NCBI GenBank assembly: GCA_944383825.1
Contig: CALWRA010000001.1
Location: 1-64,000 of the forward strand
DNA from: an uncultured Acetatifactor sp.
Lineage (GTDB): Bacteria > Bacillota > Clostridia > Lachnospirales > Lachnospiraceae
Direction: 5' to 3'
Length of the DNA stretch: 64,000 bases
Shown: in pieces, positions 13,612 to 59,019 of the stretch
How positions within the stretch are numbered: position 1 is the stretch's first letter
Layout: every line of letters begins with the position of its first letter
The notes under the pieces: generated by a model
The model's database searches: none
Told to the model about the DNA's origin: nothing
The model's input: the letters and a program-made list of their open reading frames with translations, nothing else
Translations under genes and position numbers: made by a program

Positions 13612-13841
13612 GCTCCCGCCTCGCTTTCCTGCTTAATCTCAATACGCCTGCTGCCGTTCTGCTGTATAATCGCCTCTACGTGCAGATAGGCAGGCAGCAA
13701 TATAACGCTGCCCGCTCTTAACTGGTAATCAATACTCTTGCGCATCTTCTCGTATTCTTCGGCTCTGGCTGCTACCTTGCAGCCTAAAATAATTGTAATC
13801 TGCTGCGCCTTACTCTTCTTTTTCCGCTGCCGTCTGTTCAT
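13608..13841 (-). CDS. Hypothetical protein
   Basis: 77 residues, MNRRQRKKKSKAQQITIILG, basic N-terminus. Its start lies inside the 3' end of parB (31-bp overlap) and its stop overlaps the next start, so it belongs to the parB operon. No recognised family. Confidence 0.55.
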   Translation of the reverse strand: MNRRQRKKKSKAQQITIILGCKVAARAEEYEKMRKSIDYQLRAGSVILLPAYLHVEAIIQQNGSRRIEIKQESEAGA

Positions 13842-15021
13842 TGCCTGCCTCGCTTTCTGCTTTCGCTGCCTGCTCCTGCTGCCAGCCCTCTATATCCTGC
13901 TGCCCCTCTATCTGTCCGTCGTCTGCTGTCGGCTCTTCTGGGTGCTGGCAGCGCATCATAATGTCATGCAGTAAATATAAATCGTCCTCGCTTACTTTAT
14001 CTGCCTGCTGCATAATCGCTCTGGCGGTAAATACTACCCATTCTGTGTTATTCCAGTCTTTCTGCGGCGTGTCCGTTTCGGACACCTTAAGCACCGCATC
14101 TGCTGCGGCTTTTGTGGCAGCGCTCACGCTCTCTTTTACCCATTCACGCATAACCTTTGCGTGCTGGGCTGCGATTTCTGCCGCCCTTGCCTTTTCCTCT
14201 GCCTCTGCCTGCTTGCGCTCGGCTTTCTCTATCTCCTTTTCTGTCTCTTCCTGCTGCTTTTCGTAATCGTGCTGCGCCTCTTCGGCATCTGCTGCGGCTT
14301 TGGCTGCTGTTTTCTCTGCTACCTTAAGGGCTATTTCCTTTGCCCTTATGTCCTCGCCTGCTGCTACTTGGTTTGCAATAGCTCTCTGCTCTTCTGGCGG
14401 CAGCTTTGCAGCCTCATAGGCAGCAGTAATACCCATGTTGCCATTTTTCAGCTGCTCTTTAACCTCTGGCGTGGCATTGTTGTTAATGCTCTCCATTCTG
14501 GCTACGTTAGTGCTGCTCTCATTCAGCATAGCTGCGATTAAATCACGCATCTTGCCTTGAATTTCTAACCCGTCCTCTTCTTTGGCTCTGATAAGTGCGG
14601 CTTTTGTGCGCTCTACTAATCTGGTCTTTTCGTAAGCCGTAAGCGGCTGCGTGTATCCGTTGCCTGCCAGTAACGAAAGCTCATACATAGCCTCGCTCAT
14701 ATCCTTATAGCGGTATAGCACTTTCTCATACTCTTTGTGTCCCCGCTCCAAATTGAAAATATTAGCGGCGTTTCTGCGGTGTCCGTCGATAATTCTAAAT
14801 TCTCCGTTTACCCTTGCCAATACTGTAGGCTGCTCCTGCCCTACGTGTAAAAAGCTATCTGCCAGCTCTTCTATGCCCTCTAAGTTCTGGTGTGTGTTCT
14901 CGTCCGCTGCCTTTACCTCATACGGGCTTAAGTAAATCTCGGTGTACTTATCCACCGTGCCTGCTGCCGTTCCTGCTTTGCTCTTTGCGTTCAAAATATC
15001 ATTTATACCAAACTTTGCCAT
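13810..15021 (-). CDS. parB: ParB-like partition protein with long coiled coil
   Basis: 403 residues. Residues about 25-120 contain the ParB nuclease-like fold (GVDKYTEIYLSPYEVKAADE, VLARVNGEFRIIDGHRRNAA with the GHRR motif), then the HTH region (MLNESSTNVARMESINNNAT). The C-terminal half is an unusually long Ala/Glu/Lys coiled coil and acidic tail. With ParA it would segregate or position an extrachromosomal form. A parS site was not identified by eye. Confidence 0.93.
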   Translation of the reverse strand: MAKFGINDILNAKSKAGTAAGTVDKYTEIYLSPYEVKAADENTHQNLEGIEELADSFLHVGQEQPTVLARVNGEFRIIDGHRRNAANIFNLERGHKEYEKVLYRYKDMSEAMYELSLLAGNGYTQPLTAYEKTRLVERTKAALIRAKEEDGLEIQGKMRDLIAAMLNESSTNVARMESINNNATPEVKEQLKNGNMGITAAYEAAKLPPEEQRAIANQVAAGEDIRAKEIALKVAEKTAAKAAADAEEAQHDYEKQQEETEKEIEKAERKQAEAEEKARAAEIAAQHAKVMREWVKESVSAATKAAADAVLKVSETDTPQKDWNNTEWVVFTARAIMQQADKVSEDDLYLLHDIMMRCQHPEEPTADDGQIEGQQDIEGWQQEQAAKAESEAGNEQTAAEKEE

Positions 15022-15039
15022 ATTCTTTACCTCGCTTTC

Positions 15040-15255
15040 TTAGCTGTAATCTCTTGCGAATGTTGCCGCAAATCCTCGTTTAAATGTGTCCCAGTCCTCT
15101 TGTTTTCCTACTCGGTAGTATTTAATTATCTGCTTGTGCTTTTCATACGTTCTGCCTATGCAGATACCTAACCCTCTATCTTCTTTTATCCAGAATATAC
15201 GTAAATCTTCGTGCATTTCGTAAATGCTGCTTTTGTACGCCTGCCTGCTTTCCAC
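15040..15255 (-). CDS. Hypothetical protein (possibly the 3' part of a frameshifted gene)
   Basis: 71 residues from a GTG at 15255; contains FWIKEDRGLGICIGRTYEKH. It overlaps the 53-codon frame 15186-15347 by 70 bp in another phase. The upstream frame has the good ribosome site, so the two may be one gene broken by a single-base indel, or two overlapping genes. Confidence 0.5.
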   Translation of the reverse strand: MESRQAYKSSIYEMHEDLRIFWIKEDRGLGICIGRTYEKHKQIIKYYRVGKQEDWDTFKRGFAATFARDYS

Positions 15256-15347
15256 TCTCTCAATGCAGTATGAAAAAAGTCGTTCCAGCTTTCCGTTGTC
15301 ATTTCCTGCATATACTCTGGGTAAGAGTTATATTTTGAAAATGCCAT
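15186..15347 (-). CDS. Small hypothetical protein downstream of parA
   Basis: 53 residues from an ATG at 15347 with GCGAGGTAGG just upstream, MAFSKYNSYPEYMQEMTTES. It starts 4 bp after parA ends. Its 3' third overlaps the next frame out of phase. See the linked finding on a possible frameshift. Confidence 0.55.
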   Translation of the reverse strand: MAFSKYNSYPEYMQEMTTESWNDFFHTALREWKAGRRTKAAFTKCTKIYVYSG

Positions 15348-15350
15348 ATC

Positions 15351-16130
15351 CTACCTCGCTTTTCCCGTATACTCGGTTATAAATCTCTTATAGTCCTGCG
15401 CAGCTCCGCAGCATGGGCTATACTCATAAATCGGCTTTCTCATAAAAGAGTTTTCCGCTACTTTTCTGGAATATCTGATAACGCCCAGTATGTTATATTT
15501 CTCTGTATCTGCCTGCTGCTTTAGCCACTCCACGCCTGCTGCCTCTCCGTCCGTGTTCTGGTATACAGTAACCAGTACGCCACGCATCTTAAGCGACGGG
15601 TTAAGCGCCTTTGCGTCCTCTATCTGCTCTGCTACAATATCCAGCCCCTCTAATGCGTCCTCGTCAATCTTCATGGGTACTATAACCTCGTCCGTGATCG
15701 CCAGCGCATTTACCACATTAAGCCCTATGTCTGGCGGGTTGTCGATAATGCAGTAATCATACCCGCACCTTACCCAGTCTGCGTGCTGTATCAGTTCCTT
15801 GTATCTCTCCGTCTGGCTCTCGTCGTCCGTTTTTGTCAAATTCCATGTAGCCCCGAATAATGACATATTAGAGGCTATAATATCTATGCCCTCGTACTCT
15901 GTCGCCTGTATCAGCTCTGTTGCGGTCCGCCAGTCCCCACAAAGCAGCTTTGCGATCGGCGCTACCTCGTCGGCGTTGTATCTGCCGTATGCCTTGCTTA
16001 AATTTCCCTGCTTGTCGTTGTCGATCAGCAGCACTTTATAGCCTCTCTTCATCAGCTCGTATGCCATATTTACGGCTGTAAAAGTCTTTGCTACTCCGCC
16101 CTTTAAATTCAAAATGCTTATTGTCCTCAT
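15351..16130 (-). CDS. parA: ParA-family ATPase
   Basis: 259 residues. Deviant Walker A KGGVAKT (residues 10-16), DNDKQGNLSKAYG switch region and the Walker B-like YDYCIIDNPPDIGLNVVNAL. It belongs to the ParA/Soj family that moves ParB-bound DNA over the nucleoid. It is in an operon with parB but separated from it by one or two small frames. Confidence 0.96.
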   Translation of the reverse strand: MRTISILNLKGGVAKTFTAVNMAYELMKRGYKVLLIDNDKQGNLSKAYGRYNADEVAPIAKLLCGDWRTATELIQATEYEGIDIIASNMSLFGATWNLTKTDDESQTERYKELIQHADWVRCGYDYCIIDNPPDIGLNVVNALAITDEVIVPMKIDEDALEGLDIVAEQIEDAKALNPSLKMRGVLVTVYQNTDGEAAGVEWLKQQADTEKYNILGVIRYSRKVAENSFMRKPIYEYSPCCGAAQDYKRFITEYTGKAR

Positions 16131-16152
16131 TCTTTACCTCTCTTTCTGCGCC

Positions 16153-16563
16153 TTAACGCAAAATAATAGTTTCCAGCTCTTTTGTCAGCTCGTCCGGCTT
16201 TAATAAATACTGCTCTATCAGTTCTGCTGCCCGCTGCCAGCCATAGCATACAGCTGTATAGTAGCCCTGCCCGTGCAGGAATTTAAGCCAGTCTTTCTGC
16301 TTTTGCGTTGTGGTATTCTTTCCAGCCTTAAGCTCTATGTACAGCCCGTGATATTCTGCCCTCGGCGCTGGTAAAACAATATCCGGCATGCCTGCCTTTA
16401 CTCCTTGCCGCTTAAGCGCTACCGCCGTGGCTGCGTCACGCTTGCCGCCGTTCGGTACGTGGTGCATATATTCCAGCTCCGGCATACGCCCCAGCTGGTA
16501 CGCAGCCCAGTTAAACAGTGCCTCTTGGTGTCCGCTCTCGTCGTCCAGCCTAAAGTTTCTCAT
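16153..16563 (-). CDS. VRR-NUC domain nuclease
   Basis: 136 residues with PD-(D/E)xK-type core: HVPNGGKRDAATAVALKRQG, GMPDIVLPAP, GLYIELKAGKN, then WLKFLHGQGYYTAVCYGW. The family includes phage Holliday-junction or flap-type nucleases. The start overlaps the stop of the 41-residue Cys-rich gene (ATGA). Prophage B has a homologue in the same coupling. Confidence 0.93.
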   Translation of the reverse strand: MRNFRLDDESGHQEALFNWAAYQLGRMPELEYMHHVPNGGKRDAATAVALKRQGVKAGMPDIVLPAPRAEYHGLYIELKAGKNTTTQKQKDWLKFLHGQGYYTAVCYGWQRAAELIEQYLLKPDELTKELETIILR

Positions 16564-16685
16564 GCTCTCGCCTCTCTTTCCTGCATTACCTCATTTCTGC
16601 AAAGATCGTAATACTCGCAGAAAAGGCAGCAACAAAGGCAATGCTTACCCCTCTGGAATATCCAATACTTAAGCCTCTGTATCAT
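16560..16685 (-). CDS. Small Cys-rich protein coupled to VRR-NUC
   Basis: 41 residues, MIQRLKYWIFQRGKHCLCCC, with a cluster of six Cys (HCLCCCLFC...DLC) that may bind metal. ATGA overlap with the nuclease start indicates coupling. Prophage B has a 57-residue Cys-rich protein in the same spot. Confidence 0.6.
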   Translation of the reverse strand: MIQRLKYWIFQRGKHCLCCCLFCEYYDLCRNEVMQEREARA

Positions 16686-16845
16686 TCTCTTTTTCCACCT
16701 TTCCGCTGTCTCCCCGCTCTATCTCGTCTCTTGCGTTTAATACGGCTGCAATCAGTGAAAAGCCTAAAAAGCTCATTACCAGCAATGCCATAATAACTGC
16801 TACGATCATCAGCCCTATTGTTATAACCCATTCAAAAGCGCTCAC
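16669..16845 (-). CDS. Small membrane protein downstream of rep
   Basis: 58 residues from a GTG at 16845. One long hydrophobic span (VITIGLMIVAVIMALLVMSF) followed by an acidic tail. A GGGGGG ribosome site precedes the GTG; an overlapping ATG in front is closed at once by TGA. Function unknown. Confidence 0.6.
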   Translation of the reverse strand: MSAFEWVITIGLMIVAVIMALLVMSFLGFSLIAAVLNARDEIERGDSGKVEKENDTEA

Positions 16846-16846
16846 A

Positions 16847-17614
16847 TTATCCCCCCCTCGTCGTGTTTTCTATCAGTCTGTAGCAGAAATACCCGTAGCC
16901 GTAATAATCTGGGCTGTGTACGCCTTTTCTTATGCTGTCTTTGTCTACGTAATAGCCCTTGATCGGTCTTGCCTCTGCCTTAAACCATTCTCTGTCTGTA
17001 ATTATCCTGTACTCCGGCTCTGGTCTTACAAGGTTTTTGCTGCAATTCCAGCGCTTGCCCTGTAATGCTCCGTCCGTTCCTCTGTTGTGCGTTCCCGTAT
17101 ACTTGATGAAATATACCGCAAGGTCTTTGTAGTCTCCCGTATCGTCCAGCGGGAATACCTTTACTCTGTTATGCCCCTCATACGCCTTATACCAGCATTG
17201 CTGTAATATCTTTGTGTCGATCTGGTTAATAACAAGGTGGTGGTGTCTCGCTCCCTTTGTGCCGATCTCCATAACGTGTATGTATTTAAGCTCCCTGCCC
17301 TGCTTTTTAAATTCCTTTCGCAGCTCCCGCAGAAAAATATCTATGTCTTTTCGCATTTCCTCTTTTGTCCTGTCCGGCTGTCCCTTATGTCGTATGTAAT
17401 CTAAAACTATGTGATAGTCTCCATACTCAAAATTTGCGTTCATCAGAATACGCAGCTTTCTTTCTGCCTGTCTGGTATTTATCTTTTGCTGCTGCTCCTG
17501 CGTCGGCTTTACCTTATCCCCCCTCTTTATCCCTTTCTTTTTGTATCTGCTGGTAAAGTACCTCTCTATCTCTATCGTTTTTCCAGCTTTGGTTATTCTC
17601 TCTACATACGGCAT
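16847..17614 (-). CDS. HUH endonuclease, rolling-circle replication initiator
   Basis: 255 residues. The HUH metal motif lies at residues 124-126 (GARHHHLVINQ) and candidate catalytic tyrosines at 168 and 172 (AVYFIKYTG), the order seen in Rep proteins that nick one strand and covalently hold its 5' end. It heads an operon leading to VRR-NUC, ParA and ParB, with a structured upstream region that could hold the origin. Prophage B carries a longer homologue. Replication role is inferred. Confidence 0.85.
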   Translation of the reverse strand: MPYVERITKAGKTIEIERYFTSRYKKKGIKRGDKVKPTQEQQQKINTRQAERKLRILMNANFEYGDYHIVLDYIRHKGQPDRTKEEMRKDIDIFLRELRKEFKKQGRELKYIHVMEIGTKGARHHHLVINQIDTKILQQCWYKAYEGHNRVKVFPLDDTGDYKDLAVYFIKYTGTHNRGTDGALQGKRWNCSKNLVRPEPEYRIITDREWFKAEARPIKGYYVDKDSIRKGVHSPDYYGYGYFCYRLIENTTRGG

Positions 17615-24359: not shown

Positions 24360-24398
24360 GAAAATCGGCAGAGGCTTTATAACCTCTTGTCGATTTTC
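24360..24398. terminator. Second hairpin terminator at right end of prophage A
   Basis: GAAAATCGGCAGAGG pairs with CCTCTTGTCGATTTTC around an 8-nt loop; the minus strand continues TTTTTTTATAGG. It probably insulates the prophage from tRNA-Ser transcription, as the 58201-58249 hairpin does for prophage B. Confidence 0.7.
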
Positions 24399-24490
24399 AT
24401 TCTAAAACTTATCAATAACTTTTGTCTTTCTTTACAAAGCTTTACCTGTAGGAAAAACCACGTAAATTTCTTATAGAAAAAACGCAAAAA

Positions 24491-24540: not shown

Positions 24541-24628
24541 CGGAGAAAGAGGGATTTGAACCCTCGCGCCGCGTGAGCGACCTACACCCTTAGCAGGGGC
24601 GCCTCTTCAGCCTCTTGAGTATTTCTCC
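24541..24628 (-). tRNA. tRNA-Ser (GCT)
   Basis: An 88-nt class II tRNA: acceptor GGAGAAA/TTTCTCC, anticodon GCT in loop CTGCTAA, long variable arm (GGTCGCTCACGCGGC-type stem) and T arm GAGGG TTCAAAT CCCTC. Discriminator is G, and CCA is not encoded. It has its own promoter and terminator. It is intact and not duplicated at either prophage end, so it is a host gene lying between them, not a split attachment site. Confidence 0.95.
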
Positions 24629-24691: not shown

Positions 24692-24720
24692 ATTATACAT
24701 AAGATTACATTATTTGTCAA
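24692..24720 (-). promoter_or_regulatory. Consensus promoter of tRNA-Ser
   Basis: TTGACA (24715-24720), 17-bp spacer and TATAAT (24692-24697) on the minus strand, about 64 bp upstream of the tRNA. The TTGA of the -35 box would also have supplied the stop codon of plsC before prophage insertion. Confidence 0.9.
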
Positions 24721-24731
24721 TTGCTTTTTTG

Positions 24732-24747
24732 ATTTTCGTATTTTTCT
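24732..24747 (+). repeat. Left attachment repeat of prophage B
   Basis: ATTTTCGTATTTTTCT, identical and in direct orientation to 58312-58327. Joining sequence left of this copy to plsC right of the other copy gives a sensible plsC ending (...ENQKSN stop). Confidence 0.85.
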
Positions 24748-24765
24748 GAATTTTGTCAATAGTTT

Positions 24766-24772
24766 TGCGACA
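24766..24772 (+). repeat. TGCGACA, left inverted end motif
   Basis: Lies 18 bp inside the left attachment repeat. The inverted copy is at 58286-58292, 19 bp inside the right one. A 7-mer occurs by chance in 33 kb (another copy at 54165-54171), so only the symmetric placement is suggestive. Confidence 0.4.
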
Positions 24773-24797
24773 CTTTTTTAGTCACTTTTTTTAAATT

Positions 24798-25844
24798 TCA
24801 TGCCGTGATTTTCTCCAATTCCTCTTCAAACAATTCCTTGGATGTCTTAAAGCCTAAAATGCCCCTGGGGTATGTATTTATCCAGCTTTCTATAAACTCT
24901 ATATCCTTATCCTGCTTTTCGTCAAAATCTTCTCCCTTTGGTATGTGGCGGCGTATCAGTTTGTTTTGGTTCTCGTTTGTCCCCCTCTCCCATGAACTAT
25001 ACGGGTGACAATAGAAAATGTATGTGCGGCGTTCCCCTGGATGCAGTATAGAACGCTCCATTCCCTCGCAATCGGAAAACTCTGTTCCGTTATCTACGGT
25101 TATGCTTTTGAATATTTTATGGAACATACCGCCCCATTTTCTTTCCAGACGGTCCAGGGCATCCACAACGCTTTCCGCCTTTTGGTCTTTCAGCTTAAAG
25201 ATAATCTCATCCCTGGTCTTTCTCTCCGTCATAACAAGCAGACATGATTTTGTCACGCCCTGTTTGCCCTTTACGGTATCCATTTCCCAATGTCCAAATA
25301 TTTCACGGTCTTTTACCTCTTCCGGGCGGTTTGCAATGCTCTCCCCGGCCGCCGCCCTCTTCTGTACTTTCACTTTTTTGTTTTTCTTCTTTTTCTTTCC
25401 CTTTACTGGCAAATCTTTGTTCGTGATTTTTAGGAATATCCCATTATCAATATATCTGTATAATGTCCTTACGCTGATTGTGGTTTTAAACTCTTTTCCG
25501 CTTGTCTCTGCCGCTGCCAATGCGGCTTCCGGGCTGTATTTATCATTGGCAATTTTATCTTCCAGAAATTCCGCATATTCAACGTCATTTCCGATTTTTA
25601 AACTTTTGCCTTTTCCCTGGGCGTTCCAATCATGGGTCTGCTGCCCCTTATCACTGCTGTACCTTACCTCTTCCGTGTAATCGGAATTTCTGTGGACGTA
25701 TTCGCCCCGTTTTATCTCTCTGTATATCGTGCTTCTGTGAACGTGCAGATACTCCGCAACCTCCGGCTTTGAATATCCTTTGTTCAGCAGTGTTTCCATT
25801 TTTATTCTATCACTGTGTTCTAAATGCTTATAGTGCTTACCCAT
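24798..25844 (-). CDS. IS30-family transposase, probable prophage recombinase
   Basis: 348 residues. An N-terminal HTH (residues 10-47, HRSTIYREIKRG) and a DDE catalytic core: D189 (HWEMDTVKGK), D251 (ITVDNGTEFSD) and E286 or E291 (SSWERGTNENQNKLIRR). Length and motifs are complete. It is the leftmost gene of prophage B, 50 bp inside the left attachment repeat, and no separate terminal repeats bracket it as an independent IS. It is therefore the best candidate for the enzyme moving the phage. IS30-type transposases are known in Spiroplasma filamentous phages. Confidence 0.95.
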   Translation of the reverse strand: MGKHYKHLEHSDRIKMETLLNKGYSKPEVAEYLHVHRSTIYREIKRGEYVHRNSDYTEEVRYSSDKGQQTHDWNAQGKGKSLKIGNDVEYAEFLEDKIANDKYSPEAALAAAETSGKEFKTTISVRTLYRYIDNGIFLKITNKDLPVKGKKKKKNKKVKVQKRAAAGESIANRPEEVKDREIFGHWEMDTVKGKQGVTKSCLLVMTERKTRDEIIFKLKDQKAESVVDALDRLERKWGGMFHKIFKSITVDNGTEFSDCEGMERSILHPGERRTYIFYCHPYSSWERGTNENQNKLIRRHIPKGEDFDEKQDKDIEFIESWINTYPRGILGFKTSKELFEEELEKITA

Positions 25845-26487: not shown

Positions 26488-26679
26488 CTATGATGTTCCC
26501 ATTCTCTGTTTAATTGCTTGGTTTATATATTCATTTACACTTTCCCCGGCTTCGGCTGCTTTTTCCTTGATAACTGCTTTTTCCCCTTTGGGTACGGTCA
26601 AATTGATGCGGTCATATTTCTCATTGATAAAATTATTCTGATACTGAAACTGATTAAATTCTTTTTTTGTTTTCGGCAT
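26488..26679 (-). CDS. Ribbon-helix-helix-like DNA-binding protein
   Basis: 63 residues. The segment YDRINLTVPKGEKAVIKEKA followed by GESVNEYINQAIKQRM has the strand-helix-helix pattern of Arc/CopG-type regulators. It is the only obvious repressor candidate in the left cassette, and palindromic sites lie at the promoters nearby. It could be a copy-number, lysogeny or transposase regulator. Confidence 0.7.
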   Translation of the reverse strand: MPKTKKEFNQFQYQNNFINEKYDRINLTVPKGEKAVIKEKAAEAGESVNEYINQAIKQRMGTS

Positions 26680-26981: not shown

Positions 26982-27027
26982 ATTATATCCTATATTGCGT
27001 AATATGTCAATACATATTGTGTAATAT
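26982..27027 (-). promoter_or_regulatory. Consensus promoter with two palindromic operators
   Basis: TTGACA (27005-27010), 17-bp spacer and TATAAT (26982-26987) on the minus strand. The palindrome ATATTGCGTAATAT (26992-27005) fills the spacer, and ATATTGTGTAATAT (27014-27027) lies 22 bp away, two helical turns. The promoter reads into the small acidic gene, the RHH gene and the transposase, so a bound repressor would silence them. Confidence 0.85.
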
Positions 27028-27596: not shown

Positions 27597-27620
27597 ATTA
27601 TAATTCATATTGCGCAATAT
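27597..27620 (-). promoter_or_regulatory. Promoter -10 with palindromic operator
   Basis: TATAAT (27597-27602) and the perfect palindrome ATATTGCGCAATAT (27607-27620) have the same 10-nt offset as at 26982-27005, but the -35 box is poor. It drives the composite ORF and is probably controlled by the same repressor. Confidence 0.7.
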
Positions 27621-46936: not shown

Positions 46937-47680
46937 TTATTCCCTCTCTTTCCTGCCTGTCTCATAGGCTTTCATTGCAATTGTCAAAACTGCCGCCGAC
47001 TGCTCCACGGTCAAATACTGCTCCCGTACAAGCGTTGTCAAATCCCTGTTTGTGGTTTCCAGTGTTTCTTCCAGGGTTCTTTTTGCAAACCCTATTCCGC
47101 ACGACAAATCTATGATTGTCTGTTTTATTCCCTTTGCGTATTCTCCCGGCACTGCTGCCAATTGCTTATTCATTGCCTTTTCGTCTCTGCCTGGGTTGTA
47201 ATACCTGCATCCCCGGCACTCTTCCCTACCAAACATCCGGGACGGCAGTTTGATACCGTCACATTTTCCGGCAATCCACGGCGCATTGATGCACGCTTTC
47301 TTTGGCATCCGCCCCGGCTCTGAGAGGTACGCAAGTATCTCTTCCCTGGCTTCCTCTGCGCCGTAGCATACCGCCGTTTTATATCTTTGTGTTTCAAGCA
47401 TTGCCATATACTCTTCCTGGGCTTTCGTGGCTTTGTTCTTCCCAAACTTCAATTCGATATAAAGCCCGTGAAACCCGTTTTTTGCCACTGGCAAGCATAT
47501 GTCCGGCACTCCGCTTTTAAGGCCCGCCGCCTTTAATATGCCGCCATTGGTCCTTTTTCCCTCGTTTGGCACATGGTAAATCAATGCCAGTTCCGGCAGT
47601 ATGCTTTCTGTCCTCTTCGCCCAATCGAATAACACAATCTGTTCTGTTGTCTCGCTCCGCTTCATGTTCTGCATTTTCAT
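46937..47680 (-). CDS. VRR-NUC domain nuclease with C-terminal extension
   Basis: 247 residues from the ATG at 47680, which overlaps the upstream stop (ATGA). Nuclease core: YHVPNEGKRTNGGILKAAGL, GVPDICLPVAKNG, GLYIELKFGKN. It is extended by a Cys-containing region (CRGCRYYNPGR) and a helical tail not found in prophage A. Confidence 0.9.
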   Translation of the reverse strand: MKMQNMKRSETTEQIVLFDWAKRTESILPELALIYHVPNEGKRTNGGILKAAGLKSGVPDICLPVAKNGFHGLYIELKFGKNKATKAQEEYMAMLETQRYKTAVCYGAEEAREEILAYLSEPGRMPKKACINAPWIAGKCDGIKLPSRMFGREECRGCRYYNPGRDEKAMNKQLAAVPGEYAKGIKQTIIDLSCGIGFAKRTLEETLETTNRDLTTLVREQYLTVEQSAAVLTIAMKAYETGRKERE

Positions 47681-47850
47681 GTTCCATTCTGTCCCCTTTC
47701 CCGGCGGTATTTGCAGTATTTCCACACGCAAACTACTTTGTATTGGTTTTCTATGTATTTTGGATTTTCACATGCCCCGTTTTCTTGGTTGTAAGATATA
47801 CACCTTCTGCAATAGTCCGGATGTGTTGGAAATAAAATAATCTCCGCCAT
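47677..47850 (-). CDS. Small Cys-rich protein coupled to VRR-NUC
   Basis: 57 residues, MAEIILFPTHPDYCRRCISY, with five Cys (CRRC...C...CVWKYC). It starts 4 bp after parB ends and overlaps the nuclease start. Counterpart of the 41-residue Cys-rich protein of prophage A. Confidence 0.65.
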   Translation of the reverse strand: MAEIILFPTHPDYCRRCISYNQENGACENPKYIENQYKVVCVWKYCKYRRERGQNGT

Positions 47851-47853
47851 TTT

Positions 47854-48780
47854 CTATTCTTCGTCTAAGGCATATTCCCGCTTCCGGCGTTTGCAGTCCT
47901 CTAACATCCGTTCCAAAATGCCCGTTTCCTCTTCGGAAAGATAGATATAATACTTTTCAAGCATCTTTACGGCGTGTAATTTTTTGGCGTTCGCCTTTTC
48001 TTCCTCGTTTGTGTCTGTATCTGACACGTTCTGCTCCCTGGCTGTGTCCTCGGCGGTTTTCCGCTTTTTCCTGCTGCCCTCTGCAAGCTGCTTTATTTCC
48101 TCGCTTTTTATGTCCGCCCCGGCTTCCACTGCTGCCGCAACCTCATTTTGTGCGCCGTCTGCCAGTTTGCTTGTTTCATAGGCTTTTGTGATACCCATAT
48201 TCCCGTTTGCAAACTGCTCTTTTACTTCCTCAGTCGCATTGTTGTTGATTGCTTCCAACTGCGCTATTTTGGTCGGGCTTTCCCCTAATATCTGCGCCAC
48301 ATAGTCCCTTACCCTTTTTCCGGCTTCCAGGACTAACAATTTTTCTTTCCTTGCCTGGGTTAGGACCTCTTTCCAGTCTGCCGCCTGGTTCATCAAATCA
48401 TAATCTGTCATTTTGCGGTTGAATGTGTTGCCAATCAGCAGCGATAACCTAAACTGCGTTTCCGTCATGTCCTTAAAGCGGCACGGTATATTCCTTGTAA
48501 TTTCCGTGTGTCCCTCGTTTTGTAATATCACAAGGGCTTCTCTTCGCCTGTGTCCGCCGGAAAGAAGATACTCCCCGTTTACCCGGCCAATGATTAAAGG
48601 CTCTTGCAGCCCGTCCATAAGGATTGACGTTGCCAGTTCTTCCAAATCGTCCATGCTGTAACGGTTGTGCCTTGTCACTTTGATTTCGTCCAGGTCAAGC
48701 GTGATTTCTTCGTAATTCTCCACACCCTCAACCGCCGCCCTGGTTGCCCCGTTCATAAGGTCCATGATGTTAAATGCCAT
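47854..48780 (-). CDS. parB: ParB-like partition protein
   Basis: 308 residues: ITLDLDEIKVTRHNRYSMDD, GRVNGEYLLSGGHRRREALV (GHRR) and HTH region ILGESPTKIAQLEAINNNAT, then a Glu/Lys tail. Directly behind parA (1-bp gap). Shorter C-terminal coil than prophage A ParB. Confidence 0.95.
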   Translation of the reverse strand: MAFNIMDLMNGATRAAVEGVENYEEITLDLDEIKVTRHNRYSMDDLEELATSILMDGLQEPLIIGRVNGEYLLSGGHRRREALVILQNEGHTEITRNIPCRFKDMTETQFRLSLLIGNTFNRKMTDYDLMNQAADWKEVLTQARKEKLLVLEAGKRVRDYVAQILGESPTKIAQLEAINNNATEEVKEQFANGNMGITKAYETSKLADGAQNEVAAAVEAGADIKSEEIKQLAEGSRKKRKTAEDTAREQNVSDTDTNEEEKANAKKLHAVKMLEKYYIYLSEEETGILERMLEDCKRRKREYALDEE

Positions 48781-48781
48781 G

Positions 48782-49606
48782 TTATGCCCTCTCTTTCCGG
48801 CCTGCCGCCTGTGCTTTCCCCATGTATTCCAGGATAAAGTTTTTATATCCCTGTGCCGCCCCGCTCCGCACGGAATAGGCTATGGGCGTTTTGTGGTAAA
48901 ATGTGCTGTCCTTTACTTTCTTTGAGTGGCGTATCACGGTATCAAAGACGGGCAGTCCGCTTTTTGTCCTCAACCATGTTTCCGCCGCTTCGCTTGTGTC
49001 GGATTTCTCATAATCCGTAATCAGCACCCCGGCAAGCCTGGATTTCCTGTTAAGCTGCCTTATGTTGTTTACCTGCTCCACCAATTCTTCCAACCCGTCC
49101 AGGGCGTAGCAGTCCAGGTTTACGGGAATGATGATTTCATCCGCCGCCACAAGGGCGTTGATTACGTTCATTCCTAAATCCGGCGCATTGTCTATGATGC
49201 AGAAGTCGTAATAATCCCCGTCCCAATCCTTTAAATTTTCAAACGCTCTGCGGTATCTGTCATGCTGCGGCGTTTCCATGTCTGCCTTTATTTCCAGTTC
49301 TGCCAACTCCATAAAGTAATTGCACGGCACAATATCCAAATTCCGGTTCTTGGTGTGCTTTATATCCCTTACGTTAAAAACGGCATTTTTCAAGACTGCT
49401 GCCGCCGGGGCTTCTGTCTGGTTCTGGTAGGCATCAAAAAGGCGGCTTGCGTTCCCCTGTTTATCGTTATCGAACAAAAGCACCTTTCCCGGCTCTACTG
49501 CCCCACGCTTTGATTTAAAGCCGTCTGCCAGCAGTTCCGCCATGCTGACCGCTGTTGTCGTTTTGGCACATCCGCCCTTTAAGTTCAGTGTGCAGATAAT
49601 TTTCAT
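48782..49606 (-). CDS. parA: ParA-family ATPase
   Basis: 274 residues with Walker A KGGCAKT, LLFDNDKQGNASRLFDAYQN and YDFCIIDNAPDLGMNVINAL. Overlaps the rep stop by 4 bp: rep, parA and parB form one operon, as in plasmids. Confidence 0.96.
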   Translation of the reverse strand: MKIICTLNLKGGCAKTTTAVSMAELLADGFKSKRGAVEPGKVLLFDNDKQGNASRLFDAYQNQTEAPAAAVLKNAVFNVRDIKHTKNRNLDIVPCNYFMELAELEIKADMETPQHDRYRRAFENLKDWDGDYYDFCIIDNAPDLGMNVINALVAADEIIIPVNLDCYALDGLEELVEQVNNIRQLNRKSRLAGVLITDYEKSDTSEAAETWLRTKSGLPVFDTVIRHSKKVKDSTFYHKTPIAYSVRSGAAQGYKNFILEYMGKAQAAGRKERA

Positions 49607-50523
49607 GTTGCGTTCCCTCGCTTTCTCCTTTTTGGCTTGTCTTTTGGTTTCTCGCCCTTTTTCACCATACGGGCGTATATGTAAAAGGCTGCGTTTACTT
49701 TGTTGTGCTTGGCTTCCGCATCCAGGAACGTATAGCCCGGATATGCCTTTTCCATTTCTTCTTTCAGCACTCCATAATCAAAGGCCATTTTCTCAACCTT
49801 TGCCTTGCTAAATTTGCTGTAACTTCTCTTTGGCTCGTCCGGCTTTTTTAAATTCTTGGACGGACACCAACGCTTTGTTCCGTGTGGGTTCTGTGTTATG
49901 TATGTGGCAAGCCCGGTCAATAAAAAGTTTTCGTCCGGGGCTATGTTTCTTGTGTTCGGTCTGTCGCACTTCCCCCACATGGCTTCCAGTTCGTCCCTGT
50001 CTATCCCCCCGGATATGAGCAAATGGAAATGTGGGCGTTTGTACTCCCCAAATGCGATTATGTATATATACTTGGCGTTCTCTAAGCCTAATTTTTTCCG
50101 TTTCCTGTTTATGCGCCGGATGAAATTTACCACGTCTTTTTTTGCATCCTCGTATGTTTCCGGCAATAACCCGTCATTCCACCCAAACGTAGCCCATATA
50201 TCCCCTTTGCCAAAATTGATATTTGCTAAACGGATTAAATACCGCCTTGCGTTCTTGTCGTTTAGGTTCTTTTGTGACGGGCTTGTCTCTCTCTTCTTTG
50301 CTGTCTTTGGCATATCCGCCTTTACTTTAAAGGACGGGTACACCATGCTTTCAAGCAATGTCGTGTTGTCTTTTAGGTTCGTGCTTTTGTAGGTGGATGT
50401 CCTGTAAAGGCAGTTTGTCCACCCCTCTTTCAGAAACCTCTCCCATTCCGCTTCCTGTAATTTCTCGCACTGCTCCTTGTACGCTTCCTCATAGTCGTAA
50501 TTGTCATAATATCTTTTTGCCAT
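49603..50523 (-). CDS. HUH endonuclease, rolling-circle replication initiator
   Basis: 306 residues. HUH at residues 165-167 (YKRPHFHLLISGG) and candidate catalytic Tyr208 (GLATYITQN). An N-terminal extension of about 80 residues has no counterpart in prophage A Rep. Directly upstream of parA/parB. Expected to nick at an origin in the preceding 300 bp. Confidence 0.87.
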   Translation of the reverse strand: MAKRYYDNYDYEEAYKEQCEKLQEAEWERFLKEGWTNCLYRTSTYKSTNLKDNTTLLESMVYPSFKVKADMPKTAKKRETSPSQKNLNDKNARRYLIRLANINFGKGDIWATFGWNDGLLPETYEDAKKDVVNFIRRINRKRKKLGLENAKYIYIIAFGEYKRPHFHLLISGGIDRDELEAMWGKCDRPNTRNIAPDENFLLTGLATYITQNPHGTKRWCPSKNLKKPDEPKRSYSKFSKAKVEKMAFDYGVLKEEMEKAYPGYTFLDAEAKHNKVNAAFYIYARMVKKGEKPKDKPKRRKRGNAT

Positions 50524-50649
50524 TGCCCCACCTTTTTATCTATGTAAAACCCACCATTCCAGGCGGATGTATCTTATATCCATAAAATATGGTTGATGTG
50601 TTAAGGCCCATTACAAGGACGGGAAAACCTGGTTTCCTGTCATAAAAAA

Positions 50650-50787
50650 TTAAATCCTGCCGGTCCAGTCCTCGAAAAGTTCCAGAAATGCCTGTGCGGT
50701 TTTTAAGCATCCCAGAAACGCCAATAAGATAAGTTTCAAAACCATACATCCGATAACCAATACTGCCGCAATGATAACTATTTTCAT
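50650..50787 (-). CDS. Small membrane protein upstream of rep
   Basis: 45 residues from an ATG at 50787 with GGAAAGG upstream, MKIVIIAAVLVIGCMVLKLI. One transmembrane span and an acidic amphipathic end. A frame in another phase (50540-50749) is less convincing. Confidence 0.65.
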   Translation of the reverse strand: MKIVIIAAVLVIGCMVLKLILLAFLGCLKTAQAFLELFEDWTGRI

Positions 50788-50827
50788 ACGCCCCAGCCTT
50801 TCCGCCTCTTTCAGCCGCTTTTTACTA

Positions 50828-50868
50828 TATATAGGTATTCTGTGTTTACAAACACAATATGTTGTGTT
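50828..50868 (-). promoter_or_regulatory. Promoter and overlapping palindromes upstream of rep operon
   Basis: Palindromes TGTGTTTACAAACACA (50841-50856) and AACACAATATGTTGTGTT (50851-50868) share an arm. A minus-strand promoter TTGTGT, 18 bp, TATATA overlaps them. Likely operator or Rep-binding iterons controlling rep. Confidence 0.6.
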
Positions 50869-50891
50869 ATACTGTCCATGTTGAGTTCCAA

Positions 50892-50932
50892 AGCCCCTAT
50901 TGTTTCAGGTCCCCACCTTTGCAATAGGGGCT
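50892..50932. terminator. Hairpin AGCCCCTATTG/CAATAGGGGCT
   Basis: An 11-bp stem with a 19-nt loop, placed just upstream of the rep-operon promoter as in prophage A (17748-17779). The T-run lies on the plus-strand side; on the minus strand only GGGGCTTTGG follows. Terminator or origin element. Confidence 0.55.
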
Positions 50933-50940
50933 TCGCTTTT

Positions 50941-51240
50941 TTATGCTTCCGGCAGTTCGCCGTATATTTCTTCGTAAATTCCCGTTGCATATTTCATCAA
51001 AAGGGCTTTTGCTTCTTTTTCCTCGATAGCTTCCCCTATATAACGGTAGTCCGCTTCATGTGTTAAAAGCCAGTTCCCTTTTTTGCTTCTCCATAACTCG
51101 CAGTCATATGTCCTTCCTACTTCTTTTCCTGGATATAACGCCTGTGTAAAATAGTTTTGTACTTCATACCATTTCTTTACATCCGCAATTTTTTCCATGT
51201 TGTCCGTGTTGTACTTCATTCCGCCTATGATAAATAACAT
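50941..51240 (-). CDS. Hypothetical protein
   Basis: 99 residues from the ATG at 51240, overlapping the upstream stop; MLFIIGGMKYNTDNMEKIAD, with WLLTHEADYRYIGEAIEEKE. No recognised family. Confidence 0.6.
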   Translation of the reverse strand: MLFIIGGMKYNTDNMEKIADVKKWYEVQNYFTQALYPGKEVGRTYDCELWRSKKGNWLLTHEADYRYIGEAIEEKEAKALLMKYATGIYEEIYGELPEA

Positions 51241-53663: not shown

Positions 53664-54143
53664 CTACCTTGTAGCTTCTACAATGGCGTTGTATAGGTCT
53701 GCCGTCCTCTCCCCGGCTTCCAGGCGTTCTTTCAATGGTAAAAGCACGGGGTAAATGATTTTTCCAAAATATCCGCCAGGTGTATATTTTGATAACATAT
53801 CTTTTATGGCATCTTCCGCCGCTTCCCAATTCCTTAATGCTTCCGGCTCTTCCCCTATCACAAGCCCGTCCATTTCCTCTTCAATATGTTTTGCCAACTT
53901 CTCCGCCGCCTGGTTGGCGCATACACGGGCGATAAATCCGGCATTAAAAAGAAACTCGCATACGTTAAAAGCCAGTTCCCCCGGTTGGATGCTTCCGGCG
54001 GTTTCTTCCCGTCCTGCTCCCGGCTCTGCTTCCTCTCCTGCCGCCGCTTCTGGTGCTGCTGCCTTGGCTGTCCCTTTTACGTCCGGCTCGTCTCCCGGCT
54101 CTTCCGTCTTATTCATCCCGGTAAATTCTTTGTTCTCTTCCAT
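53664..54143 (-). CDS. Hypothetical acidic protein
   Basis: 159 residues from the ATG at 54143, preceded by GAAAGCGAGGAAC. The frame stays open upstream into the methyltransferase C-terminal part, but the ribosome site marks the true start. Acidic Ala/Glu linker then a helical domain with three Cys. No family recognised. Confidence 0.6.
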   Translation of the reverse strand: MEENKEFTGMNKTEEPGDEPDVKGTAKAAAPEAAAGEEAEPGAGREETAGSIQPGELAFNVCEFLFNAGFIARVCANQAAEKLAKHIEEEMDGLVIGEEPEALRNWEAAEDAIKDMLSKYTPGGYFGKIIYPVLLPLKERLEAGERTADLYNAIVEATR

Positions 54144-54495
54144 GTTCAGTTCCTCGCTTTCCTCTGTCGCATAAATGCTTTTTGCTATCTCTTCCGCTAT
54201 TGCGGTAAAAACCGTTGTCGTTACGGCGTTCCCAAATTGTTTATAGGCTTGGCTGTCTGATACCACTTGTTTCCAATCGTCCATAGGAAACGCTTGCAAA
54301 ATGCCGTATTCTTTCGGCGTTAATCTCCGTACCCGTAGGCGCTTTGTATCAAATATCTTCACTTCTCTCTGCCCCCCCCGGATGTTGTAAGGGTTGGGGC
54401 TATCCCGTCCACGGAATACACCCGGCGGCATTGTTCTTTCCCTTTTATGTCAAGCATCCCCACCATTTTGCAGCCCTGGTTATCTGCTCTTCCCA
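54144..54495 (-). pseudogene. C5-methyltransferase, C-terminal part (frame broken at G8)
   Basis: A frame from an ATG at 54495 reads MGRADNQGCKMVGMLDIKGK, then YSVDGIAPTLTTSGG, and stops just after a G8 run. The next phase continues VKIFDTKRLRVRRLTPKEYG and motif X YKQFGNAVTTTV. One extra G would join them. It completes the target-recognition and motif IX-X part missing from the upstream gene. Confidence 0.7.
54372..54379 (-). repeat. Poly-G tract (G8) in methyltransferase
   Basis: Eight G on the coding (minus) strand at the frame switch between the GIAPTLTTS and VKIFDTK segments. Slipped-strand mispairing to G9 would restore the frame. Confidence 0.75.
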
Positions 54496-54722
54496 TTGTC
54501 TTGTTCCTTTCGCTCTTCAATTACCGCTATCATGTCTTTCTTTCCTGTATACCCCTTATAGTCCCTGGCGGTAAGGCATGGGGAAATGTCCGTAATCCTT
54601 AAAACATTCCTTCCGCATTGGTTTACCGCTACCGTAACCGGGAAATCTATTTCCTGCTGCCCGGATTGATTAAAATATATTGGTAATTGTGTTTCTTCGT
54701 TAGGCTTCCGCCCCCCCCCCAA
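54480..54722 (-). pseudogene. C5-methyltransferase, middle part
   Basis: The frame reads RKPNEETQLPIYFNQSGQQE then RITDISPCLTARDYKGYTGK, a typical target-recognition segment, ending DNGKSR. It is out of phase with the N-terminal gene because of the G10 tract at its start. Its 3' end overlaps the ATG of the C-terminal part. Confidence 0.7.
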
Positions 54723-55701
54723 CTCTAAGCGTCTTTCCGCATCCGTTTGGGTCTAATAGGCCTGTTTCCTCTGAAATATCCGCAATAACGCTTTCTTCCG
54801 TCTGCCCGTCCTCTAAGACAATAACGCCGTGTATATCCTGGGCGGTAAGCGTAAACATTGGTTCTTCCTCTGCCTTTGCCCGTGGTCCGTTCTGTCTTTT
54901 GTTGATGCGGTCCGGCGTGATGCACGCATGACATTTTCCCATTTTCTCTAATTTCTCCATTGCCTGGGTTATAATCGTCTGTGCCTTTTCGTCCGGCAGA
55001 TAATACTTTTCCGGCACATCCTTTTCCAGATAGTCGGAAAGTTTCGGGACAAGTTCGTGCTGCTCTTCCGGGAATGTAAATTGTATTCCTTTTTTATTTC
55101 TGGTCCCCACCACGGCGTAACGGTCCCTGTTCTGCGGTACTCCCCAATATTTTGAATTGAACCGCTCTATATGCGCCGTGTAGCCGTGGCGTTCATATTC
55201 CAGGCAAAGCACTGGCAGATACAGCCGTAACCCTCGCACATTCTCCGCAATGATAACGGCCGGCATGGCATCCGCCCTTTCCCGTTCCGTTTCTTCCAGT
55301 AGGCGCATGATTTCAAAAAAGCATCCGCTGCGGCTTGCCGCCTTGAAGTCTGTGCATCCGCATCCAGGGCATACCGTGTTCCCTGTGTATTCTTCCGGCT
55401 TTATCTCTATTTCCTTGCCGCAATCCTCACATTTTAAAACCATTCCCTTTTGCTTCCCGGCAACACTCAAATCCTGGCAAGGGAAACCAAACGCCCATAC
55501 ATCCGCTTTTGGTATATCTGCCTGGTGCAAGTCTTTTATATCTGCTTCCTGCACATGATCCCCGACATTCTCCCGGTAGGTTTCCACGGCGTATTTATCA
55601 AAATCCCATGCCCCGGCTATCTCATACCCGGCGTTTTTAAAAGCTATCCCCATGCCGCCGCATCCGCAAAAAAAATCATTTACTTTTAATGTCCGCTTCA
55701 T
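54700..55701 (-). CDS. DNA (cytosine-5)-methyltransferase, N-terminal part
   Basis: 333 residues with motif I DFFCGCGGMGIAFKNAG, catalytic motif IV AFGFPCQDLS, an inserted zinc ribbon (CEDCGKEIE...CPGCGC), motif VI AENVRGL and VIII QNRDRYAVVG. Motifs IX-X are missing because the frame shifts at G10. As read it should be inactive. Confidence 0.88.
   Translation of the reverse strand: MKRTLKVNDFFCGCGGMGIAFKNAGYEIAGAWDFDKYAVETYRENVGDHVQEADIKDLHQADIPKADVWAFGFPCQDLSVAGKQKGMVLKCEDCGKEIEIKPEEYTGNTVCPGCGCTDFKAASRSGCFFEIMRLLEETERERADAMPAVIIAENVRGLRLYLPVLCLEYERHGYTAHIERFNSKYWGVPQNRDRYAVVGTRNKKGIQFTFPEEQHELVPKLSDYLEKDVPEKYYLPDEKAQTIITQAMEKLEKMGKCHACITPDRINKRQNGPRAKAEEEPMFTLTAQDIHGVIVLEDGQTEESVIADISEETGLLDPNGCGKTLRVGGGAEA
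54711..54720 (-). repeat. Poly-G tract (G10) in methyltransferase
   Basis: Ten G on the coding strand. With G9 the N-terminal gene (...KTLRV) would continue into the middle part; with G10 it ends GGGAEA. Confidence 0.8.
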
Positions 55702-57388: not shown

Positions 57389-57583
57389 ATGGATTATTCC
57401 GTACTTGATGAACAAATTGCGCATCTTATAGACCATTACAAAACGGCTGCGGAAGAAACTTTGAGGGCTGCCACCCTGGATAATAACACTGCCGCTTGCC
57501 TGTCTAATCTGATTGCGGATAATGTAACCGTTTTAAACAATATCCGCATGGCCGTTTCTGACTACTTGGAAACGTGCCATTAG
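57389..57583 (+). CDS. Lone plus-strand small protein
   Basis: 64 residues from the ATG at 57389 (AAAGGGGA 8 nt upstream), MDYSVLDEQIAHLIDHYKTA, all-helical. It has its own promoter and terminator, opposite to every other prophage B gene, so it may be expressed in the lysogen or regulate the early operon. No family recognised. Confidence 0.7.
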   Translation: MDYSVLDEQIAHLIDHYKTAAEETLRAATLDNNTAACLSNLIADNVTVLNNIRMAVSDYLETCH

Positions 57584-57986: not shown

Positions 57987-58169
57987 TTAAACCGTCTTTT
58001 GTGCCACGTCTGCGCTATACGGCGTACCGCCCCGGCGCAACTCGTTATATATGGTTGCCTTGTGAACGCCTATTGCTTCCGCAATCTCCGTTACCTTTTT
58101 CCCGGCCCGTTCCATTTCTTCAATCTTCTTTCTGTCCGGGTACGCAATGCGCTTATTGCCTTTTCTCAC
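57987..58169 (-). CDS. Small HTH protein like the IS30 transposase N-terminus
   Basis: 60 residues from a GTG at 58169 with AAGGTGG 9 nt upstream; the longer frame reads into the terminator. DRKKIEEMERAGKKVTEIAE then GVHKATIYNELRR matches the transposase HTH (HRSTIYREIKR). First gene inside the right end. Likely regulator or end-binding protein. Confidence 0.75.
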   Translation of the reverse strand: MRKGNKRIAYPDRKKIEEMERAGKKVTEIAEAIGVHKATIYNELRRGGTPYSADVAQKTV

Positions 58170-58249: not shown

Positions 58250-58285
58250 TGTCGAATATTGGTAAGTGCTTGAGTTATTTTCTCT

Positions 58286-58292
58286 TGTCGCA
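58286..58292 (-). repeat. TGCGACA, right inverted end motif
   Basis: Inverted copy of the left motif, 19 bp inside the right attachment repeat; it continues as TGCGACAAGAG. Prophage A's right end has CGACAAGAGG within its terminator. Confidence 0.4.
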
Positions 58293-58293
58293 C

Positions 58294-59019
58294 TTACATA
58301 GTAAACTTAGCATTTTCGTATTTTTCTATTGCTTTCTCTATCCTGCTCTTGACTTCTTCCGCTATCTCTGTCGTCTTCATCTCCCCATATTCCTCATAAT
58401 AAATGGGAGGAAGGTAAATCAGCTTTACTGTTACAGGCTTAATTGATTTCTCATCAAACGGCCTGAAAGAATCAATCAGCGCGCAGGGTACAATAGGACA
58501 TCTCGCTTTTACCGCACTTTTAAATGTCCCGCCTTTAAAAGGCAGAAGTTTATTCCCCATTCCACTTCTGGTTCCCTCGGCAAAAATCAAAAAATTTCTT
58601 CCTTTTTTCACTTCTTGTGTCACTTGGGAAATCACCTGCATTGATTGACGCAGATCCTCTCTGTCAATGGGTATGGCTTTCAAAGCAGCCACTACCTGCT
58701 TCAGTAAAATAATATTGCTTGCCTCTTTTTTAATAACAAAAGAAAAAGGAACCGGACAAGAGTCCAAAAATACTAGTACATCAAACAGCCCCTGGTGGTT
58801 TGGAAAGAACATAAATCCGTTCTGTTTAGGAATATTCTCAATGCCATAAGTCTCTATTTTCACTCTCCCCGCATGATTTGCTGCCTTTGTAACCTTTTTC
58901 ACCCGGGCATATGCTTCTTCGAGGCCGATCTTCTCGTCTTTTCCACATTTCCAGATCAAGTAGAAATAATAAGGCACTTTCCACAAAAGACGGATAACCA
59001 TTAAAATAATACGTCTCAT
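58294..59019 (-). CDS. plsC: 1-acyl-sn-glycerol-3-phosphate acyltransferase
   Basis: 241 residues. N-terminal membrane segment, catalytic HxxxxD in FFPNHQGLFDVLVF, substrate motif FAEGTRSGMG. Makes phosphatidic acid at the membrane. The C-terminus (AKFTM) is phage-derived beyond the 16-bp repeat; the predicted original end is QKSN. Function should be unaffected. Confidence 0.95.
   Translation of the reverse strand: MRRIILMVIRLLWKVPYYFYLIWKCGKDEKIGLEEAYARVKKVTKAANHAGRVKIETYGIENIPKQNGFMFFPNHQGLFDVLVFLDSCPVPFSFVIKKEASNIILLKQVVAALKAIPIDREDLRQSMQVISQVTQEVKKGRNFLIFAEGTRSGMGNKLLPFKGGTFKSAVKARCPIVPCALIDSFRPFDEKSIKPVTVKLIYLPPIYYEEYGEMKTTEIAEEVKSRIEKAIEKYENAKFTM
58312..58327 (+). repeat. Right attachment repeat of prophage B
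   Basis: ATTTTCGTATTTTTCT inside the last codons of plsC, identical to 24732-24747. The phage supplies the new last six codons and stop. Confidence 0.85.

Follow-up and report, generated by a model that had tools for sequence, protein, structure and literature searches.

What use an integrated prophage could have for the replication and partition genes of a plasmid is the question raised by a locus of an uncultured Acetatifactor sp. (Lachnospiraceae), located within the first 64,000 nucleotides of contig CALWRA010000001.1 (GenBank assembly GCA_944383825.1; this whole stretch is hereinafter the window). The original prediction, made from these letters alone, placed a plasmid-type replicon inside an integrated siphophage, and the three genes in question, rep, parA and parB, are indeed found there, all on the minus strand, as one operon of a 33.6 kb prophage that we denote prophage B (24747-58311, minus strand). 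We consider it probable, albeit well short of certain, that B is a temperate siphophage existing in two forms, a circle that is a rolling-circle replicon and a prophage inserted by a transposase. In the circular form, the HUH family Rep would nick an origin that precedes the rep gene by about 95 bp, an antisense RNA across the rep leader would limit Rep by blocking the ribosome-binding site (RBS), and ParAB would help the circle to be inherited. In the prophage form, the phage's own IS30-family transposase would join the two ends, yielding a circle with a 2-bp spacer, and the circle would be pasted into the host genome ahead of a sigma-A promoter, always at the same distance, duplicating 15 bp of the target.

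The rep-parA-parB operon and its replication initiator

The rep gene (49603-50523, minus strand) encodes a 306 aa protein that belongs to the phrog_3584 family ('replication initiation protein', E 1e-66) and shows borderline similarity to PF23343 (REP_ORF2-G2P). The motif H165-x-H167 and the tyrosine Y208 are invariant in 41 Rep homologues, and the AlphaFold2 model of the protein (predicted local distance difference test, pLDDT, 85.6) has a predicted HUH fold, with Foldseek and VIA matches to HUH Reps; the closest structure is the Rep of SIRV1 (ORF119), which stands alone at Z 10.0, followed by the Reps of adeno-associated virus (AAV)/parvoviruses (7.0) and RepB of pMV158 (5.7). The check by structural prediction, in which a Rep devoid of this fold would have counted against the replicon, came out in its favor and, on the model, Rep is a single-tyrosine HUH nickase, that is, an initiator of the rolling-circle type. 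No other replication gene was recognised among the scanned early genes of B. A search of the PDB sequences with Rep returned only designed PPR repeats, aligned over a short C-terminal stretch, which we judged to be an artefact.

The two downstream genes encode a 274 aa Walker ATPase (parA, 48782-49606, minus strand; AAA_31, 2e-35; phrog_164, ParA-like) with a deviant Walker A box, KGGCAKT, and a 308 aa ParB-like protein (parB, 47854-48780, minus strand; ParB_N, 6e-4; phrog_4715, ParB-like, 1e-39) with the motif GGHRRREA, the combination found in one operon in ParABS systems. The overlaps of 1-4 bp originally reported for the three genes apply to rep and parA, which share 4 nt (ATGA, 49603-49606); parA and parB do not overlap, a single base (48781) lying between the parA stop and the parB start. 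Beyond parB follow a VRR-NUC nuclease (46937-47731, minus strand; PF08774, 8e-8), a constant neighbor of the rep-par module, and then an HNH protein and the small and large terminases; relatives keep the order Rep-ParA-ParB-VRR-HNH-TerL (large terminase) at about 55-85% identity. Because this synteny extends across many phages, the predicted operon is more than a chance assembly of genes.

An HUH Rep had been considered unusual for a tailed phage of this type, a view that does not hold given that at least 99 viral contigs carry a Rep of this type. The same Rep is also present in the Terrisporobacter phage TPDSL_ph2 and in temperate phages of Latilactobacillus; those that we opened encode an integrase and lack par genes.

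A candidate origin and a predicted antisense RNA upstream of rep

About 95 bp upstream of rep lies a candidate double-strand origin (GTCCTTGTAATGGGCCTTAACA, 50599-50620, minus strand). Its 11-nt core, CTTGTAATGGG, is found upstream of rep exactly in 35 of 130 Rep loci and with at most two mismatches in 65 of them, compared with 0 and 11, respectively, in shuffled sequences. The putative nick site (CTTGTAATGGGTATTA) is kept from 73% down to about 30% Rep identity, and the origin candidate is present also in the phage-plasmid of P. sordellii and in the Terrisporobacter phage. Within the window alone, the motif is not significant (0.66 occurrences expected at 3 mismatches), so that its weight derives from conservation across the Rep loci. 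The search for a nick site, proposed earlier as a way to examine the replicon, thus yields a conserved candidate upstream of rep, and CTTGTAATGGG is the best candidate for the place where Rep would nick.

Further upstream, a plus-strand promoter, TTTACA-17-TATACT (50845-50873), has as its spacer the palindrome AACACAATATGTTGTGTT (50851-50868), and its -10 box is conserved in relatives; by a consensus scan alone, this promoter is at chance level (5 vs 3.5). It precedes a predicted antisense RNA of 63 nt, of the copy-control type (50880-50942, plus strand), that folds as one hairpin at -25 kcal/mol, the segment 50891-50933 forming the body and terminator of this short RNA. In the core stem, all 8 pairs are kept in 8 sequences, 3 of them via compensatory changes. 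The loop, CCCCACCTT, is the complement of AAAGGTGGGG in the rep RBS (AAAAAGGTGGGGCAATGG, 50520-50537, minus strand). Within the clade, the leader copy and the RBS match over 10-14 nt, compared with at most 10 in shuffles, and the two drift together: GGGGAAC and GGGGAAC in prophage G225a, GGGGACC and GGGGACC in L076, GGGGAACA and GGGGAACA in L078. Antisense RNAs that limit Rep synthesis are usual in many plasmids, and we read the 63-nt RNA as a predicted limiter of this kind that would exert plasmid-style control over Rep. The palindromes and the hairpin that had been noticed ahead of the operon are both real, the palindrome being part of the antisense promoter and the hairpin of a conserved short RNA. 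An Rfam search with this RNA gave no convincing family match. The RBS-like sequence of the leader was also considered as the start of a small protein and rejected, the relatives having no consistent start codon. The predicted antisense RNA on rep is of practical interest as well, as part of a small replicon module for gut bacteria that are hard to manipulate.

An IS30-family transposase as the likely integrase

The original prediction overlooked how B is inserted: no integrase was recognised in B, the window contains no tyrosine recombinase (no separate search for serine recombinases was made), and the likely integrase is an IS30-family DDE transposase (24798-25844, minus strand; HTH_38, 1e-11; rve, 7e-9; motifs WEMDTV, TVDNG and NENQN). 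This is the last gene of B, adjoining the left end, and it is present in a single copy in the genome. Such transposases are mostly missed by PF00665 in viral contigs, and protein queries were used instead. The left end of B (24747-24773, minus strand) is an inverted repeat that contains TTGACA, and its arm recurs in L076, L155 and G225 as well as in 10 viral contigs; the inverted repeat at the right end (58282-58311, minus strand) contains a -10-like part. A hairpin just inside the right end (58264-58295, minus strand) resembles a read-through terminator in relatives; in B, it lacks a close T run. The first gene inside the right end encodes a stand-alone helix-turn-helix (HTH) protein of the HTH_38 family (57987-58169, minus strand; PF13936, 2e-9) that is matched by the transposase in a search of its own genome (E 3e-4) and is a relative of the DNA-binding domain of the latter.

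The boundaries of B are defined by empty sites and duplications. In sister genomes, the 3' end of an acyltransferase gene directly abuts the tRNA-Ser and its promoter region; in the window, the two lie 33.6 kb apart, and the empty site was found in at least 11 genomes of the same genus. The prophage is flanked by two copies of a 15-bp duplication, GAAAAATACGAAAAT (24732-24746 and 58312-58326). The one-contig genome G225 contains a prophage that is fully syntenic with B from Rep to the transposase; its transposase lies at the same end, and its duplication is likewise 15 bp long. Altogether, duplications of 14-16 bp flank seven independent prophages of the B type (B, G225a, G225b, G294, G338, G359 and G472); each of them encodes Rep and has an HTH gene at the right end, and ParAB is present in all except G225b. 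Target duplications in the IS30 family are typically 2-4 bp, and long ones are known in some mycoplasma members. The transposase itself is of the IS30 family, with HTH and DDE domains, terminal inverted repeats and, in relatives, a short-spacer circle; because of its target duplications of 14-16 bp, the whole phage was not classified as an ordinary IS30 element.

Near the transposase, we also observed an open reading frame (ORF) for a 63-aa ribbon-helix-helix-like protein (26488-26679, before the transposase gene) and repeated operator-like ATTGCGYAATAT sites (26992-27027, 27607-27620; 9 hits vs 3.2 expected). Together, these suggest a separate set of repressor and operators.

Insertion upstream of sigma-A promoters

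Next to the left end of B lies its target, the promoter of the host tRNA-Ser (TTGACA-17-TATAAT, 24692-24720, minus strand; tRNA at 24541-24628). In all 16 insertions of the clade, the best-scoring sigma-A promoter starts 24-28 nt from the left end, so that distance and orientation are fixed, and in 14 of the 16, the promoter score is at least 9 of 12 (binomial P ~1e-20 against shuffles). The more distant transposases G558, G553 and L211 (47-54% identity), which were excluded from this test, do not follow the promoter rule.

Circle junctions and a possible lysogeny switch

In IS30-type circles, the ends are joined with a spacer taken from the old flank. Junctions of this appearance, with a 2-bp spacer, were found in five viral contigs: AA (L076/L268), AA (L261), GC (L155/L262), TA (L269) and AT (L270). 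The flanking phage sequences of L261 and L262 are identical and the spacers differ. Another five viral contigs share this left end and represent integrated forms. A junction analysis for circular forms, another check that had been proposed, is therefore positive for the viral contigs of relatives; the copy of B in the window is itself integrated.

The examined junctions, including those of Lagaffe, nd12 and nd4, bring the left-end TTGACA to within 16-18 nt of a TAAAAT/TATCAT-like sequence of the right end. Taken singly, these junction promoters are weak (P 0.02-0.3), and their weight lies in the repetition in diverged phages. In the relatives, a terminator-like hairpin directly follows the junction, and a transcript started at the junction would lack part of the stem (in L076, -22 kcal/mol for the hairpin vs -9 for such a transcript).

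The junction promoter, the adjoining hairpin and the HTH_38 protein related to the transposase DNA-binding domain led us to a tentative hypothesis, which we think could be correct but would not bet on, that integration itself is the lysogeny switch. Under this hypothesis, the early promoter would be divided, with the -35 box TTGACA at the left end and the -10 box at the right end. Joining of the ends by the transposase would assemble the promoter in the circle and switch on the genes for the HTH protein, Rep and ParAB; upon insertion, it would be split, the right-end hairpin would stop read-through from the host, and a transcript started at the junction would escape. By binding to these ends as well, the small HTH protein would repress the junction promoter. 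The ribbon-helix-helix-like ORF and the operator-like sites described above count against this scheme in that B may employ another repressor.

Prophage A and additional features of the two prophages

The window contains a second rep-par module, in prophage A (13810-17614, minus strand). It had been described as having the same parts in a different order; the parts are there, namely Rep (16847-17614; PF23343, 9e-14), a VRR nuclease (16153-16563), ParA (15351-16130) and a ParB-like protein (13810-15021), and the order of rep, parA and parB is the same, only the nuclease gene being placed elsewhere. Prophage A occupies positions 1-24413 of the window, and its right end (24383-24413, minus strand) is of the same IS30 type, with the motif of the G294 right end. 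Judging by the gene order in the complete genome G006, prophage A lies between the tRNA-Ser, which its right end faces, and the 16S rRNA gene; it probably immediately precedes an rRNA operon. The assembly contains neither the left end nor the transposase of prophage A, the contig breaking in a repetitive gene at the start of the window.

Several other features of B deserve mention. A small hydrophobic, membrane-like ORF of 45 aa (50650-50787, minus strand) lies between the antisense RNA and the origin candidate, in a region that aligns in relatives. A cytosine methylase is encoded in two pieces (53664-54431 and 54700-55701, the N- and C-terminal parts of PF00145); because L076 and L155 have the same two pieces, the split seems to be a conserved feature and not a recent disruption. 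Among the few apparent plus-strand genes of B is an ORF of about 64 aa in the early region (57392-57583) that would be transcribed against the early genes.

One form or two

By gene content, B combines phage genes with plasmid replication and partition genes, as phage-plasmids do; as for extrachromosomal maintenance, the copy of B in the window is integrated, and circles of relatives were seen in viral contigs. The original argument, namely that ParAB make little sense in an integrated prophage and hence imply an episome, falls short of proof given that contigs with tyrosine integrases also carry Rep and ParAB. An episomal rolling-circle phase had been proposed on these grounds; the HUH replicon, the origin candidate, the predicted antisense RNA, ParAB, the circles of relatives and the relative that is a plasmid all speak for it, and a stable episomal prophage is plausible. 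Several observations weigh against the two-form scenario. About half of the checked Rep+ParAB contigs also have a tyrosine integrase, so that ParAB is not a marker of integrase-less phages and may serve something besides an episomal prophage, and in G225b, which has the transposase and Rep, ParAB is not detectable. The search for parS-like repeats, also proposed at the outset, yielded nothing usable: among exact palindromes (arm 7, gap 0-4, repeated or shared), no parS was found in B or 8 relatives, a scan that leaves other site designs possible. The circle junctions could come from replicating or packaged phage DNA rather than from a maintained plasmid. Finally, although the top Foldseek matches of the Rep model include HUH Reps, their E-values are weak, none being below 0.001. 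The palindrome AACACAATATGTTGTGTT was also considered as a parS and rejected, since relatives keep the overlapping promoter -10 box but not the symmetry.

In a rival reading, Rep is a lytic initiator only, the phage is always an integrated prophage when lysogenic, and the circle exists only in the lytic cycle, without an episome, IS30-type insertion being unchanged; we regard this as unlikely on balance, albeit as a serious competitor, and hold the same view of its corollary that ParAB would act on replicating phage DNA, by positioning or segregating it, or else would regulate rep. Close relatives of Rep replicate ordinary integrase-bearing temperate phages without par genes, Rep and ParAB occur together with tyrosine integrases, and B and G225a are cleanly integrated; however, an antisense RNA that controls rep, together with ParAB, is typical of replicons maintained at low copy, and one relative is a circular plasmid with a partition gene of its own. 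That the transposase is a passenger insertion sequence (IS), with an unrecognised recombinase integrating the phage via a 16-bp att core, appears very unlikely. An identical 16-bp repeat at a gene's 3' end does resemble an att core, and the IS30 gene of the F. prausnitzii phage FP01 has been treated as an acquired IS (PMC13432834), but it is IS30-type inverted repeats that form the ends of the prophage, the transposase is found at the same end in all full-length prophages examined, the 16-bp core is absent from the circle junctions, which differ from one another by 2 bp only, and a tyrosine recombinase is missing from the window. We give the least credence of all, next to none, to rep-parAB being the decayed, non-functional remnant of a plasmid that the phage acquired: such capture is frequent among phages and nothing specific favors it here, whereas the open frames, the invariant catalytic residues, the conserved origin candidate and the RNA that covaries across independent phages all argue for function. 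The two-form scenario, with a replicon circle and a transposase-inserted prophage, is the one we favor.

Relation to known systems

IS30 'integrases' in large prophages and promoter-targeting integrative and conjugative elements (ICEs) are known separately; our searches, which covered open-access papers, found no report of their combination, nor of the promoter rule of IS30 phages, the junction promoter or the rep antisense RNA. When a phage of gut Clostridia lacks a recognisable integrase, it is readily taken for a lytic or defective one. The ends, the duplications and the promoter rule make such phages recognisable as temperate and their sites predictable, including the fronts of tRNA-Ser, tmRNA and probably rRNA genes. 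Two questions become testable, namely what guides a DDE transposase to sigma-A promoters and whether a phage can assemble its early promoter through circle formation.

For the Faecalibacterium phage FP_Lagaffe, a large prophage, an IS30 'integrase' was reported, and the direct repeats were noted as surprising (Cornuault et al. 2018, PMC5883640); a term search of that paper found no mention of promoters. FP_Lagaffe resembles B in being a tailed prophage with an IS30-family transposase (55% identical), direct repeats, an HTH_38 protein beside the transposase and the same kind of end junction. Unlike B, it is a myovirus with other replication genes, and no ParAB or HUH Rep was recognised in it. 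The TnGBS ICEs and ISLre2-type elements integrate by means of a DDE transposase and do so in a single orientation, with a spacing of 15-17 bp ahead of sigma-A promoters (Guerillot et al. 2014, PMC3942029), sharing with B both the DDE transposase in place of an integrase and insertion at a fixed distance upstream of promoters. However, TnGBS elements are conjugative and have a Mutator-like (p-MULT) transposase, whereas B is a tailed phage with phage rather than conjugation genes, a transposase with IS30-type domains, a 15-bp duplication and the -35 box 24-28 nt from the end.

The parABS mycobacteriophages, such as Miko and RedRock, were shown experimentally to form extrachromosomal prophages, with parABS replacing the integration cassette (Wetzel et al. 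2020, PMC7157519). Like B, they are temperate, tailed and equipped with partition genes in addition to a replication initiator or origin; B differs in combining the replicon, ParAB and an integration module, and in the HUH type of its Rep. The plasmid unnamed3 of P. sordellii C173 (L006; NZ_CP124276), circular and 33.9 kb in size, was deposited as a plasmid and is a complete-looking siphophage genome without an integrase; it shares with B a homologous Rep (35%) and a similar origin motif, and differs in having ParM and no ParAB, with no IS30-type transposase detected by PF00665, an insensitive test. The bajarodino viruses 74 and 13 (L276 and L277) have an annotated replication initiator near an IS30 transposase that is 42-44% identical; unlike B, they are filamentous single-stranded (ss) DNA inoviruses, and no partition genes were seen in the stretches read. 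They hint at a rep and transposase module common to ssDNA and tailed phages. Finally, in FP01, called lytic in 2026, the IS30 gene was read as an acquired passenger IS (PMC13432834); in orf43-46 of this phage, an HTH protein of the same COG comes after the IS30 transposase, there is no integrase, and FP01 may be a temperate phage of the B type rather than a lytic one.

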